Notes under the pieces: model-generated
What the model was told of the DNA's origin: nothing
Database searches by the model: none
What the model saw: the letters and a program-made list of their open reading frames with translations, nothing else
Shown: positions 1 to 4,001 of the stretch, piece by piece
Numbering within the stretch: the first letter of the stretch is position 1
How the letters are laid out: every line of letters starts with the position of its first letter
Source of the DNA: a virus
Virus record (IMG/VR): IMGVR_UViG_3300044984_001784
Span: 1-24,114 of that record
DNA: 24,114 nt
Direction: 5' to 3' (one strand)
Program-made: the position numbers and the translations under genes

Positions 1-1358
1 CAGCGGTTCGCAGCAAAAAGAGAGGATGGGACACGCTGCTCATCCTCGACACATCCAGGCTGGCGCGGCGCCGGCACATCGCCCTGATCTTTGAAGAAAT
101 CGAGTGCCGGAAGAACGGCGTCAAGATCATTTATAAGTCGCTGCCAGAAAGCGACCCAATCACCGAAATGCTGCTCAAGTCCATCCTTCAAGCGATGGAC
201 GAGTGGCACTCGCTGACCAGCAAGGCGAAGGGGCTGGCAGGGATGGCCGAGAATGTACGCCAGGGATGGCGAGCCGGGGGTAGGGCGCCCATCGGCTACA
301 AGCTCCACCATATAGAGACAGGTGCCATCAGGGAAGGCGCCCCGGTGGTCAAATCTCGGCTTGTGCCGTCTGATGATGCGCCGGCCATCGCAACCTACCT
401 CAAGGCCAAGGCGAGCGGCCTGCAGCGCCGTAAAGCCATCCACAACGCAGGTCTGAAGCTGTCCGACACCACCGGCATCGGGGTGGAATGGAATGCGTTG
501 ACCTATGCCGGCCACACGGTCTGGAATATGCGCTATGAGGCTACGGCAGGCGGCTACACCGGAGGCGTGAAGCGGCGCCCACGATCCGAATGGATCATCC
601 AGCGCGACACCCATCCGGCCCTGATCAGTGATGATGAGGCCGAAATCCTGATCACCTATCTTGAGAACAGCAGCAAATCAGCCAACCGCAAGACCAAGCC
701 CACCTATCTGCTGACAGGGATATTGCAAAACCCGGCAGGATCGCCCTGGCACGGTGATGGGGAGGGGTTCTATCGATTGGGCAAGGGAAAGCGCGTCAAG
801 GCCGCCAAGATCGAATCTGCGGTGCTATCCCAGCTTTCCGCCAATCTTCAGGACGCAGGGTTCGTCAAAGCCTTCACGCTGGCAGCCAAGAAGCAGGCGC
901 AGGCCAGGAAGCAGGATTCTGAACTACCAAGGCTGAAGGCCGAGCTTTCTGCCGTGAGCAAGCAGATCGAGAAGTTGACTGGACTGCTCGGGCAGACGTC
1001 GACGCCTGATCCATTGTTGCGGCAGATCGAAGTCCATGAGCAACGCCGGGTGGCGCTGGATGAGGAAGTGCTGCGGAGGGCTGAGACTGAAGCCAGCGCG
1101 GATAAGGTTCGCCTGCTGACTGAAGCGCATGTCGCCAAGATCATGCGAGCAATGTCCGAGGACATCGACTCGCTTGACCGCGACAGGCTAAAAGACCTTG
1201 TTTCTGGTCTGATCGAAAAGATCGAGCTTGATGATCAAGCCCTAACTTTTCAACTCTACTTCCGGCTCAATGCCGGGGGTAGAGTGGCGTCCCCACGGCA
1301 AGGCAACTCAATCCCCGGTTTTTTCCCATGGGAACCGAAATTGCTCAGTGCCGCCTAA
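1..1358 (+). CDS. Large serine recombinase (phage integrase), 5'-truncated by the window edge
   Basis: The frame is open from base 3 to the TAA at 1356-1358, giving 451 visible residues; the N terminus lies outside the window. Visible residues 15-23 read LDTSRLARR, the second active-site arginine motif of resolvase/invertase family serine recombinases (two Arg three apart, as in DRxxR). The recombinase domain follows (about 80-215, with a GYK/PxxW pattern and HPALIS), then a charged coiled-coil segment at about 300-370, the usual order in large serine integrases. The zinc-ribbon position (YLLTGILQNPAGSPWHGDGE) has no cysteine, and none occurs from visible residue 56 to the end. It converges on the holin gene with a 4-base overlap of the two stop codons. 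The likely role is phage integration and excision. The attachment site is not visible and may lie upstream of the gene, outside the window. Confidence 0.9.
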   Translation, partial: AVRSKKRGWDTLLILDTSRLARRRHIALIFEEIECRKNGVKIIYKSLPESDPITEMLLKSILQAMDEWHSLTSKAKGLAGMAENVRQGWRAGGRAPIGYKLHHIETGAIREGAPVVKSRLVPSDDAPAIATYLKAKASGLQRRKAIHNAGLKLSDTTGIGVEWNALTYAGHTVWNMRYEATAGGYTGGVKRRPRSEWIIQRDTHPALISDDEAEILITYLENSSKSANRKTKPTYLLTGILQNPAGSPWHGDGEGFYRLGKGKRVKAAKIESAVLSQLSANLQDAGFVKAFTLAAKKQAQARKQDSELPRLKAELSAVSKQIEKLTGLLGQTSTPDPLLRQIEVHEQRRVALDEEVLRRAETEASADKVRLLTEAHVAKIMRAMSEDIDSLDRDRLKDLVSGLIEKIELDDQALTFQLYFRLNAGGRVASPRQGNSIPGFFPWEPKLLSAA

Positions 1359-1855
1359 CTGGCAACCCCGTTCTTTTTATCGACTGACCTCATGATTCCC
1401 AAGCCCAGCATCCCGAACAGAACCTGCATGGTCAGATTCGTGTCGATCACCGGGAATGCGCCGCTGTATCCAATCACGACTTGCGCGACAAACCGAGCAA
1501 CCGGCTCCAGGATCGCAACGTAGCCGAGCGACAAAGCCCCCACCCAGCCGCACACCGGGCGCCAGCCTGAGACAAGTAAACTCGATGATGTCGCCTCCTT
1601 CTCATTGACGGCGATCTGCGCCAGTTGCAGCTTGATGTTGTTGTCGAGACAGAACATCTGAAACTCGATGTCGATCTTCTTGGCTGCCAGCAAATCAGCC
1701 GCTGACATACCGGACAGGGTCTGCTTGATGCCATCAACGGTGGAATCAGAGGCGCCTAGCTTCTCGGCCAACCACTGAACCCCAGCGCCAGCCAGGGCGC
1801 CGGCAGGACCAGCCAGGAAGGTGCCTATTGCCGGTAATGCTTCGATTAGGTTCAT
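1355..1855 (-). CDS. Phage holin, 3-TM (GTA-type) family
   Basis: The 166-residue product starts MNLIEALPAIGTFLAG, with a hydrophobic Gly/Ala-rich N terminus (about 5-28). A charged middle follows, then WRPVCGWVGALSLGYVAIL (98-116) running into a long membrane segment to about 128, and a last hydrophobic helix at 141-155 ahead of a basic tail. A WRP motif before the central membrane segment with a short last helix is typical of the three-TM holins of phages and gene transfer agents, as I recall the family. It would permeabilise the inner membrane so the endolysin can reach peptidoglycan. The start has a GGGGAG ribosome site about 9 bases upstream. It is the last gene of the leftward operon and overlaps the recombinase stop. 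A lysis role fits the endolysin upstream. Confidence 0.8.
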   Translation of the reverse strand: MNLIEALPAIGTFLAGPAGALAGAGVQWLAEKLGASDSTVDGIKQTLSGMSAADLLAAKKIDIEFQMFCLDNNIKLQLAQIAVNEKEATSSSLLVSGWRPVCGWVGALSLGYVAILEPVARFVAQVVIGYSGAFPVIDTNLTMQVLFGMLGLGIMRSVDKKNGVAS

Positions 1856-1870
1856 TCGTTGCGCTCCCCT

Positions 1871-2053
1871 CTATTCAGTGTCATGCGTTGGGTTTCTCGC
1901 CATCCGACGACTCGCTGCAATTTCTCTCCGCAGTCTTTCTGCGTTCGCCTTGCGTTCCATTTCATCAGATGCTGCATTGAGCCTGATGAGAATCGTGAAC
2001 ACCGCACAGGTGAAGGCGAACAGAAAAACAAGGATGAGTTCAATTTCGTCCAT
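1871..2053 (-). CDS. Small single-TM membrane protein in the lysis cassette (60 aa)
   Basis: The product begins MDEIELILVFLFAFTCAVFT. A single membrane helix covers residues 5-26 and is followed by a strongly charged tail (ERKANAERLRREIAASRRMA) that should form an amphipathic helix. The ATG is preceded by AGGTGG at a good distance and lies two bases past the stop of the 25-aa gene. An N-terminal anchor with a charged helical tail next to holin and endolysin resembles short inner-membrane spanins or holin partners. It is much shorter than usual Rz proteins, and I found no convincing lipobox-bearing Rz1 partner in the overlapping frames. Function is unassigned; a lysis role is inferred from position. 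Confidence 0.6.
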   Translation of the reverse strand: MDEIELILVFLFAFTCAVFTILIRLNAASDEMERKANAERLRREIAASRRMARNPTHDTE

Positions 2054-2054
2054 G

Positions 2055-2132
2055 TCACCACCTGAATGGCCACACGATCACGAAGCAGGCGAGTGCTATG
2101 GCCGCGATACTGAGGTAATCGCCTGCGGTCAT
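2055..2132 (-). CDS. 25-residue hydrophobic membrane peptide
   Basis: The short frame encodes MTAGDYLSIAAIALACFVIV followed by WPFRW and TGA. Its ATG overlaps the TGA of the HNH gene as ATGA, and the 60-aa gene begins two bases after its stop, so it fills exactly the gap between two genes. Nearly all of it is one membrane helix (about 7-21) with an aromatic and basic C terminus. The tight spacing argues that it is translated. Hydrophobic micropeptides at this position could act as holin-like or antiholin-like peptides, but that is inference. It is below the usual size cut-off for gene calling. Confidence 0.5.
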   Translation of the reverse strand: MTAGDYLSIAAIALACFVIVWPFRW

Positions 2133-2172
2133 TTCATCCCCCCCCATTCAAAGCTGTAGTGGTTGCTTTTCA
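2129..2172 (-). repeat. Copy 1 of the endolysin C-terminal coding tail (inside the HNH gene end)
   Basis: The 3' end of the HNH gene encodes NHYSFEWGGM then K and stop. The same ten residues end the endolysin at about 2689-2721. Reading sense codons, copy 1 uses AAC CAC TAC AGC TTT GAA and then TGG GGG GGG ATG; copy 2 uses AAT CAT TAT TCT TTC GAG and then TGG GGG GGT ATG. Only Trp, Met and one Gly codon are unchanged. Copy 1 is joined to the 25-aa gene by an ATGA overlap, the type of junction used by most genes here, so it is the better candidate for the original endolysin terminus. Confidence 0.75.
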
Positions 2173-2686
2173 TTTGGTTTTCTTCACCAGCAATAATTTG
2201 CATGTTTTCTGGAACATGCAGACCACACACCCCTATCCCACGAATAGGAACAATATGATCAACATGGAATTCAATTCCTAACATCTTTGTGCGGAGCCTT
2301 GCTAACGCATATATTTCCTGAATGAAAAATTTATTGGCCCACTTTGGTGTTGCCTTTCTCAATCGCCCCTTATAGATTGCTTTGTCGTACCGCTTTTTAT
2401 TTCTACGACTATCCAAAAGGCAAGGAGAGCAATACATTGCACCAATAGCCAAATCAGTTGTCCCGCAGGTGATGCACTTATGCCTTGCTCGACGGCGCTG
2501 ACGCTGTTTTTCCAGCATCGCGGAAATCACAGCAGGATCGCTCTTATGATCCTTGTGGCATTGCTTGCACCAACTACTCAAATACCCTTTTGACTTGATG
2601 CGATACGGGAAATGATCTGGTGTTCTCGGAAGATCACAAGAACATCTGGCACACTTAACCATCCCTGTCCGTAATGGTCTACCCAT
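2129..2686 (-). CDS. HNH homing endonuclease carrying a copy of the endolysin C terminus
   Basis: From the ATG at 2686 the product has 185 residues; a GTG at 2704 is a possible longer start. The ATG overlaps the endolysin stop as TGATG, so I prefer it. Two four-cysteine clusters (C12, C15, C40, C43 and C71, C74, C86, C89) look like zinc knuckles. A basic linker leads to the HNH core: D143-H144 within FHVDHIVPIRG, N161 in PENMQII and N170 in GEENQMKSN. This would nick or cut DNA. Residues 175-184, NHYSFEWGGM, are identical to the last residues of the upstream endolysin. The gene is distinctly AT-rich (22 G+C in 2161-2220 and 24 in 2281-2340, of 60 each by hand count) compared with its neighbours, a sign of recent arrival. 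It probably inserted into the ancestral endolysin 3' end. Confidence 0.85.
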   Translation of the reverse strand: MGRPLRTGMVKCARCSCDLPRTPDHFPYRIKSKGYLSSWCKQCHKDHKSDPAVISAMLEKQRQRRRARHKCITCGTTDLAIGAMYCSPCLLDSRRNKKRYDKAIYKGRLRKATPKWANKFFIQEIYALARLRTKMLGIEFHVDHIVPIRGIGVCGLHVPENMQIIAGEENQMKSNHYSFEWGGMK

Positions 2687-3036
2687 CAGGACATACCCCC
2701 CCACTCGAAAGAATAATGATTTCCATCGGGTACGCTAAACCTACCTCCCCATCGAGCCAGCGGGTGTTGCTTCTCCCACCAACTGCCAAGCTCCTTGTGG
2801 GCCTCGGTGCTTTCCATATACTCACCGTTGCGAAAAAGGTTGAGGTCAATCGCCAGCCGTTGCTTATGTCCGCTCTTGGAGTGCCCATAGCCTAGCTTGG
2901 TGCCGATGGCGCCATGCACCCTTGGATCGCGGTAGGCATCCCCAAGCGTAACCTCAAATCCAAGATCACGCGCCCTGTCGATCAGACGGGGAATCAGGGC
3001 CGCAAATGCAGATTGGACTTCTCGGAGCATGCTCAT
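2686..3036 (-). CDS. Phage endolysin, M15-family peptidase (L-Ala-D-Glu / D-Ala-D-Ala type)
   Basis: The 116-residue protein is a single small peptidase domain. GYGHSKSGHKQRLAIDLNLF (49-68) carries the family pattern SxxHxxxxxxxD with putative zinc ligands H57 and D64. PDGNHYSFEWGG (103-114) supplies the third ligand H107, with D104 as a candidate catalytic acid by analogy with T5-type endolysins. AYRDP (34-38) is also typical. There is no signal peptide, so export should depend on the holin. The ATG overlaps the stop of the upstream gene as ATGA. Only two residues (M115, S116) follow the duplicated stretch NHYSFEWGGM (106-115 here), which recurs at the end of the HNH protein. Length is normal for compact M15 endolysins, so the enzyme appears intact despite the insertion after it. 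Confidence 0.85.
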   Translation of the reverse strand: MSMLREVQSAFAALIPRLIDRARDLGFEVTLGDAYRDPRVHGAIGTKLGYGHSKSGHKQRLAIDLNLFRNGEYMESTEAHKELGSWWEKQHPLARWGGRFSVPDGNHYSFEWGGMS

Positions 3037-3347
3037 GGCTTTGACTTTGCAATGTGGTCGAGGAATACTTCAGTGAGCTTGTCGATCTTTGCGCCCAAAT
3101 CGTGAAATCCGTCACGAAAGGCGTCCTCCAATCGCTGAAATCTGGCATCTAGTTCGCCCTTGACGTAATGCTCCCTGGCGATCCGTTCCTTCAGTTCTGA
3201 CAGTTGCGCCGCGTCCTCGTCATGCTTGGTGAAAAGCAAGGCGATCTGTCTTTGTTGGGCCTCATCCTTAGATCGCAGAAACCACGCGATCATGGCCGCA
3301 AGGCCGGATAGTAGGTAGAAAGCAATGTCCTTAACAAGTGTTTCCAT
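3033..3347 (-). CDS. Membrane-anchored coiled-coil protein, spanin-like (104 aa)
   Basis: From the ATG at 3347 the product begins METLVKDIAFYLLSGLAAMI, with one membrane helix at about 7-24. A long, highly charged, heptad-like region then runs almost to the C terminus (RSKDEAQQRQIALLFTKHDE onward). An upstream in-frame start at 3401 would add an unrelated basic leader and lie inside the preceding gene; the ATG at 3347 directly follows that gene's TGA and has GAGG about 9 bases upstream. An N-terminal anchor plus periplasmic coiled coil is the architecture of inner-membrane spanins, and it sits directly before the endolysin. No lipoprotein partner was found, so it could equally be another lysis accessory or a superinfection protein. 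Confidence 0.65.
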   Translation of the reverse strand: METLVKDIAFYLLSGLAAMIAWFLRSKDEAQQRQIALLFTKHDEDAAQLSELKERIAREHYVKGELDARFQRLEDAFRDGFHDLGAKIDKLTEVFLDHIAKSKP

Positions 3348-3348
3348 T

Positions 3349-3612
3349 TCAGCGCGCCTCTGGTGGTAATTGAATTCGTGCCCGTTCCTTCTGGTAGGCA
3401 TTCCAGCAGTGGTTCGGGCCTTGAAGCGGCCAGAAGATCAAATTGATGACCCACTGCCATGCTTTGTACGGGTAGCGGTGGCCAAGCCTTCCACACCTAC
3501 TGCTCCACGTTTCATCGGCCCAGGTCTGCGTCGAAAACGGATTGCCAAGCAATACGTTCAAGAACTGATCAAACGCGATGAAAAGCTGATAGAGGCCGTG
3601 ACGCAAATTCAT
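3349..3612 (-). CDS. Conserved-looking small phage protein of unknown function (87 aa)
   Basis: The product starts MNLRHGLYQLFIAFDQFLNV and contains SSRCGRLGHRYPYKAW, then WVINLIFWPLQGPNHCWNAY and a basic tail ending LPPEAR. The aromatic-rich hydrophobic stretches (9-22 and about 53-64) could lie at the membrane. I recall similar proteins next to lysis genes in other proteobacterial phages, but I know no function. Its ATG overlaps the stop of the upstream gene as ATGA and its own stop is one base from the next start, so it belongs to the same transcript. The Cys/His content (SSRCGRLGH, NHCW) may be structural. Confidence 0.65.
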   Translation of the reverse strand: MNLRHGLYQLFIAFDQFLNVLLGNPFSTQTWADETWSSRCGRLGHRYPYKAWQWVINLIFWPLQGPNHCWNAYQKERARIQLPPEAR

Positions 3613-4001
3613 GAAAAATACAGCTTCCGCAAGGCTAGGTTTTCCTCGAGAGAAACCGGAGTGGTCAGAATCGTAGTCTGCATCGCTGAATCCACTGAAG
3701 GGACTTTGCTGCCAATGTAGGCAAGAGAAGTCGCAACATCAGCGCGTTGCAGATCGATCCATTTTCGAATCTGAACGTCAGCGAGAATCGCTTTGACGGC
3801 GGCATCGGTGCTGGTGAGGACTGCCATCTTGGCGGTTGAGAAACGGTCAAAGAATGGGCCGACGTCGATGAACCACGCAGTCGGATCGACAGGCGCCGCC
3901 GGCTCTGGTTGCAGTTCGTAGTCGCCAGGGTAGTGAGATTCAACGAATGCTTCGTCAGCAACAATCACGTTGCCGGTGCTGATGATTTTGTATTGAGCCA
4001 T
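3609..4001 (-). CDS. Tail-fibre-associated phage protein (130 aa)
   Basis: The start at 4001 gives MAQYKIISTGNVIVADEAFV, with a TAATG junction to the upstream fibre gene and GGAG nearby; the longer reading from 4019 is less likely. The N-terminal part (1-40) ends YPGDYELQ. The second half (from about 55) has FFDRFSTAKMAVLTSTDAAV and KWIDLQRADV. The same pattern, RF(S/T)xA followed by ID/VD-L-x-R-x-D, occurs in the protein at 16970-17419, so the two probably share a domain. Proteins like this commonly follow tail fibre genes in phages. A fibre assembly or attachment role is a guess from position. Confidence 0.6.
   Translation of the reverse strand: MAQYKIISTGNVIVADEAFVESHYPGDYELQPEPAAPVDPTAWFIDVGPFFDRFSTAKMAVLTSTDAAVKAILADVQIRKWIDLQRADVATSLAYIGSKVPSVDSAMQTTILTTPVSLEENLALRKLYFS

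Follow-up and report, generated by a model that had tools for sequence, protein, structure and literature searches.

An HNH nuclease gene has probably inserted itself into a phage endolysin gene at its 3' end, importing a divergent homologous tail for the endolysin and displacing the old gene end to a position behind the nuclease; we put the probability of this reading at about three in four. The locus lies in the window, by which we mean the whole stretch of 24,114 nucleotides analyzed here (positions 1 to 24,114 of the IMG/VR virus record IMGVR_UViG_3300044984_001784). By analogy, the data overall are best read as homing with a swapped-in, divergent homologous tail, of the kind known from the mobile open reading frames (mORFs) of fungal mitochondria.

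The genes concerned are encoded on the minus strand. The first of them, an M15 endolysin of the L-Ala-D-Glu endopeptidase type (116 amino acids; positions 2686 to 3036), the 3' end of which appears to have been replaced, is followed by an HNH/endonuclease VII-like protein of 185 amino acids (positions 2129 to 2686), a 25-amino-acid ORF with a single transmembrane-like segment (positions 2055 to 2132) and, in the same lysis cassette, a three-transmembrane holin (positions 1355 to 1855; Pfam GTA_holin_3TM and PHROG 3427, holin). The endolysin gene ends GGRFSVPDG-NHYSFEWGGM-S-TGA, with the tail NHYSFEWGGMS-TGA at positions 2686 to 2721, and the HNH ORF ends ENQMKS-NHYSFEWGGM-K-TGA, finishing at 2129, with NHYSFEWGGMK-TGA at positions 2129 to 2164 as its in-frame C terminus. 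The ATG of the HNH gene at 2686 overlaps the endolysin stop codon as TGATG, and the end of the HNH gene shares an ATGA overlap with the start of the 25-amino-acid ORF. The original prediction that both proteins end in the same 10 residues was confirmed, its coordinates and codons being right, as was its statement that the HNH tail joins the next gene by ATGA. When all six frames of the whole window were compared with NHYSFEWGGM, these two places matched at 10/10 residues and the next best at 4/10; the sharing of this end by the two proteins is beyond chance. Because a G-rich TGG-GGG-GGN tract lies just 5' of the next start codon in both tail copies, each copy may be the source of the ribosome site of the gene that follows it. 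Positions 3 to 1358 of the window contain a recombinase-like ORF that runs off the contig edge; by eye it resembles a large serine recombinase, and it suggests a temperate phage.

The assignment of the endolysin was made from Pfam, PHROG and the predicted fold. The ORF at 2686 to 3036 matched Pfam Peptidase_M15_4 at 25.2 bits (cutoff, 25) and a PHROG annotated as endolysin, and its structural model (pLDDT, 92) aligned over nearly its full length to ChiX, PLY500, LysB4 and LysECD7, the fold matches over residues 3 to 115 having Z scores of 9.7 for ChiX and 9.2 for PLY500. A sequence search of the PDB returned nothing for either the endolysin or the HNH protein. Residues H57, D64 and H107 were invariant among the endolysin relatives, and we take them to be the zinc ligands H, D and H of the M15 family, with H107 as the third ligand. 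The predicted strand at residues 107 to 110 (HYSF) forms part of the endolysin core, and the earlier claim that the repeated stretch contains H107, a putative zinc ligand, was thereby borne out. Because H107 is the expected third ligand, an insertion at NHYS that lacked a replacement tail should inactivate the enzyme.

The two 30-base stretches that encode NHYSFEWGGM have 9 base differences but specify identical residues, and a direct comparison of the bases verified that seven of the eight degenerate positions use different codons, exactly as had been listed. The AT-rich codon version belongs to the endolysin tail and the GC-richer version (GC3, 8/11 versus 9/20) to the HNH tail. Since nine base changes have left every residue intact, each copy appears to have evolved in a genome of its own while being selected as part of an endolysin active site, and since the relic behind the nuclease is still undecayed, they seem to have met recently. 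If the insertion had duplicated the endolysin end locally and the two versions had then drifted apart, this would explain why two copies of the same 10 residues lie only 0.5 kb apart; however, simulated neutral change retained the peptide in 0 of 200,000 trials, and we consider this origin highly improbable and reject it on the strength of the zero residue changes among the nine base changes.

The HNH protein has two N-terminal Cys-pair motifs and the core HVDHIVP...GLH...N...N..K.N, in which D143, H144, H157, N161, N170, K173 and N175 were invariant over 28 relatives. It matched PHROG 26577 (E value, 1.5e-23) and PHROG 1035, endonuclease VII (E value, 5.4e-15), and the Pfam HNH match was below the cutoff in the relatives L064 and L095. 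The structural model of the HNH protein was of low confidence (pTM, 0.46); Foldseek found nothing below an E value of 1 with it, Hpy99I and ColE7 appearing among the weak rows only. We take the protein to be a putative homing endonuclease, encoded by a gene that is probably selfish. No Rfam match for an intron RNA was obtained in positions 1300 to 3700 of the window (E values up to 1) or, at the gathering cutoff, in the related contigs L058 and L220, and the endolysin's own stop codon precedes the HNH gene; a group I or group II intron or other self-splicing element was rejected on these grounds.

No close relatives of the HNH protein were found in viral contigs, bacterial genomes, phage isolates or plasmids. 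The best by alignment search, L058 and L059, share 39% identity with it overall and 55% over the C-terminal half. A K-x-N motif was present in 78 of 80 relatives, with the C terminus lying 2 to 16 residues past it, and relatives from phage isolates end KSNVYWPDMP and similar. Given this regularity, the native end of the window protein is probably near K-S-N, where it meets the G-N-H of the endolysin, and the right junction may lie at the bases GC-AAC, which the two have in common. Neither NHY nor SFEW occurs in any of the 80 HNH relatives, and the search for other HNH proteins that end in NHYSFEWGGM found none among them.

The question of which tail is the old one was addressed with M15 endolysin relatives taken from viral contigs, 92 unique sequences in all. 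NHYSFE was present in 58 of these. The C-terminal residue was K in 74 and S in 1, and the spacing between WGG and NHY was five residues in 85 of the 92 and seven in the window endolysin. In the viral contigs, empty-site relatives finish with DGNHYSFEW-GMK-TGA and are followed directly by the next gene, often via ATGA, so that the uninterrupted endolysins do carry the tail that had been expected of them. Because the empty relatives end in K-TGA before the next gene and the HNH relatives lack such a tail, the tail of the HNH protein looks like an ordinary endolysin end: most likely, it is the displaced old end of the endolysin, and the present endolysin tail was most likely imported together with the nuclease. 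The imported segment would comprise at least the NHYSFEWGGMS codons, and the odd SVP spacing suggests that it starts farther upstream, at about WGG. The nearest empty relative of the window endolysin is L139, with 79% protein identity, and a short hydrophobic ORF lies directly behind that endolysin as well. Over the tail, the identity between the window endolysin and L139 was 0.702, and the 5% level of such pairs was 0.772; this low value agrees with the atypical end and spacing of the present tail. The relic and the present tail are identical at 21 of 33 bases. A search of viral contigs by tail pattern did not reveal a donor locus in which this tail is combined with TGATG and the HNH gene. 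The GC3 of the window tail ranked 39 of 97, which is unremarkable, and we rejected it as a sign of foreign origin, tails being generally lower (mean, -0.085), even in the empty relative L223.

The converse arrangement, in which the nuclease already carried an endolysin-like tail and was inserted between an intact endolysin ending in S-TGA and the 25-amino-acid gene, would make the present tail the native one. It gains something from the tail comparisons, in which the two nearest relatives resemble the relic more than the present tail but only 7 of all 13 relatives do so, and from the existence of a few M15 endolysins that end in S (for example, L216). However, the ATGA overlap with the 25-amino-acid gene would then have had to arise anew, the residue frequencies of 74 K to 1 S among the 92 relatives speak against a native S, and the right junction in the second case, described below, demonstrably lies in the old last endolysin codon. 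We regard this arrangement as unlikely.

The contigs of the L058 type constitute, as judged from their alignments, a second, independent case of a tail-replacing HNH insertion. The HNH genes of L058 and L059 adjoin an M15 endolysin on the 5' side and a holin on the 3' side; this endolysin-HNH-holin layout was found in five contigs (L218 to L222), and the HNH gene overlaps the endolysin stop codon as TAATG. At one and the same site, the HNH gene is present in the L058 type and absent from L223, L224 and L321. In a comparison with the empty L223, the nucleotide identity of the L058-type endolysin was 83.5% before codon 94 and 56.5% from codon 94 to the stop, a breakpoint that was equalled in 0 of 2,000 codon shuffles. 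The corresponding drop from 0.826 to 0.587 was the largest of all endolysin pairs with a body identity above 0.78; for reference, tail identity averaged 0.881, with a 5% level of 0.807, in pairs with a body identity of 0.8 to 0.9. Within this clade, DGNHFS or DGNHYS is retained in the empty relatives, and the HNH-bearing members read KDAVHFSITHGGRS-TAATG, so that the replacement tail here differs in protein as well (KDAVHFSITHGGRS versus PDGNHFSVRHGGRA). On the holin side, the sequence matches that of the empty L224, L318, L321 and L322, beginning with the last codon of the endolysin (ATCGCATGATCGCAGACGCAA versus ATGGCATGATCGCAGACGCAA), which places the right junction at that codon. Because the left breakpoint is at about codon 94 and the holin-side match begins with the last codon, the element seen in L058 evidently swapped approximately the last 20 endolysin codons and left the final codon, or a few codons, of the old gene. 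In L058 (positions 3146 to 3571), and likewise in L218 to L222, the holin gene is overlapped at its 3' end by a short Endo VII-like ORF (CQICG...LSADHCHSTNRFRGLLCSACN) just behind the HNH-carrying lysis cassette, and the empty L224 has a comparable ORF start.

The exact arrangement in the window was seen in one metagenomic contig, and the left breakpoint there is not sharp, the nearest empty relative being only 79% identical. This single occurrence could point to an artefact of assembly or binning, but the two copies differ at 9 of 30 bases and both gene overlaps are intact, which is no assembly repeat, and the L058 layout recurs in its five contigs; we give an artefact almost no credence.

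HNH genes at another site served as a control. The L064-type HNH gene sits behind a conserved 312-amino-acid phage gene and starts just past its stop codon, and the last 63 bases of that gene are 98% the same whether the HNH gene is present or absent (L263 versus L264; L268 versus L271). Because these insertions leave the gene tail unchanged, tail replacement is, on these comparisons, a feature of the endolysin insertions and does not accompany HNH insertion in general. The position after the stop codon of the 312-amino-acid gene is itself a hot spot for HNH genes (L064, L065, L088, L092, L102 and L228 to L307): 9 of 80 relatives have an HNH gene there, at identities from 100% to 38%, with an unchanged gene tail. 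HNH genes also occur in another lysis cassette (L100, L101, L104, L109 and L111, near positions 2240 to 2728), between membrane/holin-like and lysozyme-like genes and overlapping both. In L095 (positions 2040 to 2704), the HNH C terminus VNKLKGNRFY is similar to the end of the upstream ORF, VNQLKSSRF; the DNA is AT-rich and the likeness was estimated to be at chance level, so that we do not count it as a tail copy, chance being more likely.

The original prediction had seen in the present endolysin tail a recoded rescue copy supplied by the nuclease. The element does appear to have brought a tail along and displaced the native one, as the empty relatives and the L058 type indicate; a recoding that keeps the protein identical is not general, the L058 tail being divergent. 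At least seven of eight codons differed in approximately 7.5% of pairs drawn at random with the codon usage of this phage, and all six NHYSFE codons differed in 1.2% of natural endolysin pairs; the number of codon differences was rejected as proof of designed recoding, since natural and random pairs reach the same level. Because homologous tails from other phages can differ as much, and because the L058 tail is not even protein-identical, a divergent donor and co-conversion are sufficient on the sequence evidence, and designed recoding is unneeded.

How far selection for cut resistance enters into this is a further matter. If the nuclease already stood behind a divergent donor endolysin, break repair or mosaicism may simply have moved the attached gene end, which would restore the enzyme by homology without any such selection. 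This passive co-conversion shares its anatomy with the best explanation, of which it is a weaker version, and it fits the data equally well: codon differences of this extent occur among natural homologues, the replacement tail in L058 has diverged at the protein level as well, and co-conversion of flanks is normal in phage homing (PMC2988022). Against it stand the difference at all six NHYSFE codons, found in so few natural pairs, and the fact that both endolysin insertions show a replaced tail and the L064-type control does not, a contrast suggesting that a site within coding sequence requires replacement. We judge its chances to be about even. More tentatively, the element may be a natural cleave-and-rescue selfish element, in which the HNH enzyme cuts the M15 active-site codons and carries along, as it spreads, an uncuttable end with synonymous divergence, with at least two origins or spreads in lysis cassettes; if this is true, cut relatives must take up the element or lose lysis.

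In the tail-swapping reading that we prefer, a free-standing HNH/endonuclease VII-like gene, presumably that of a homing endonuclease, would enter the 3' end of the M15 endolysin gene. The nuclease would cut or nick the conserved active-site codons for D-G-N-H-Y, and repair would copy the donor tail and the nuclease, so that the incoming DNA places the final codons from a divergent, homologous endolysin gene 5' of the nuclease gene. The resident body (approximately 100 codons) would thus be joined to the imported tail, completing the active site, with the nuclease next via TGATG. The last eleven codons of the resident and its stop would be pushed behind the nuclease to become its in-frame C terminus, with the ATGA link kept, and the right join would fall in the GC-AAC bases common to the K-S-N end of the HNH gene and the G-N-H of the endolysin. 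Such a swap would restore the essential gene and at the same time destroy the target, the left copy having other bases and the right copy lacking the left half.

The closest parallel is found in mitochondrial genomes. In Glomus atp6, atp9, cox2 and nad3, a mobile endonuclease ORF brings a foreign C-terminal end (Beaudet et al. 2013, PMC3630166); the same had been described earlier for Allomyces atp6 (Paquin et al. 1994, as cited in PMC3630166). The native end remains behind the mORF in atp6 and is fully replaced in atp9, and the hybrids are nearly identical in protein and 64 to 81% identical in DNA (PMC3630166). The two tails in the window are likewise nearly identical in protein with diverged DNA and mostly silent differences, and the two mitochondrial forms seem to be matched by the two phage cases: 11 codons of the probable native end lie behind the nuclease in the window, and at most a few do so in L058. 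As in the mORFs, the nuclease ORF directly follows the hybrid gene (TGATG in the window, TAATG in L058), and the upstream gene has a C-terminal end that appears foreign, as seen from the breakpoint and outlying tail identity in L058 and from the value of 0.702 versus 0.772 in the window. Unlike the mitochondrial elements, which use LAGLIDADG or GIY-YIG enzymes, the phage element has a nuclease that is HNH/Endo VII-like by PHROG and lies in a lysis gene, and only in the phage case is the displaced end translated as the nuclease's own C terminus. The phage element thus resembles an mORF in its apparent working, and we do not class it as one.

Nucleases such as Seg, Mob and F-CphI are known from positions between genes or beside introns. 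Free-standing phage nucleases home by break repair with co-conversion of the flanks (PMC2988022, PMC10448857), and F-CphI is a homing nuclease with an Endo VII motif (PMC6083498), which parallels the PHROG 1035 match reported here. The T4-like Seg and Mob nucleases and F-CphI are, like the HNH protein of the window, encoded by stand-alone genes beside conserved genes. The L064-type HNH group is of this ordinary free-standing kind, unlike the endolysin cases. In the open PMC literature, where most subscription papers are missing, we found no phage nuclease with a replaced coding end. Some integrative elements also rebuild the target gene at its 3' end, by means of an integrase and nearly identical att repeats. 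The rebuilding of the gene end by the incoming element is common to both; however, the repeats described here differ at nearly every silent site, and an HNH nuclease rather than an integrase lies between them. Engineered ClvR elements and toxin-antidote homing drives (PMC7951863, PMC7046741) also link a nuclease to a functional, sequence-different part of its target. In these designed systems, the rescue is deliberately recoded, whereas the cut resistance considered here is hypothetical and the difference may be simple divergence.

Our reading would extend the tail-swapping design of fungal mitochondria to bacteriophages, where it would involve an essential lysis gene and a nuclease of another class. 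The reading also hints at a route by which free-standing homing nucleases may enter coding sequence without an intron or intein, by bringing along the missing gene end, and at a way for nucleases to shuffle the C termini of phage enzymes. The element may represent a small natural counterpart of the engineered cleave-and-rescue drives.
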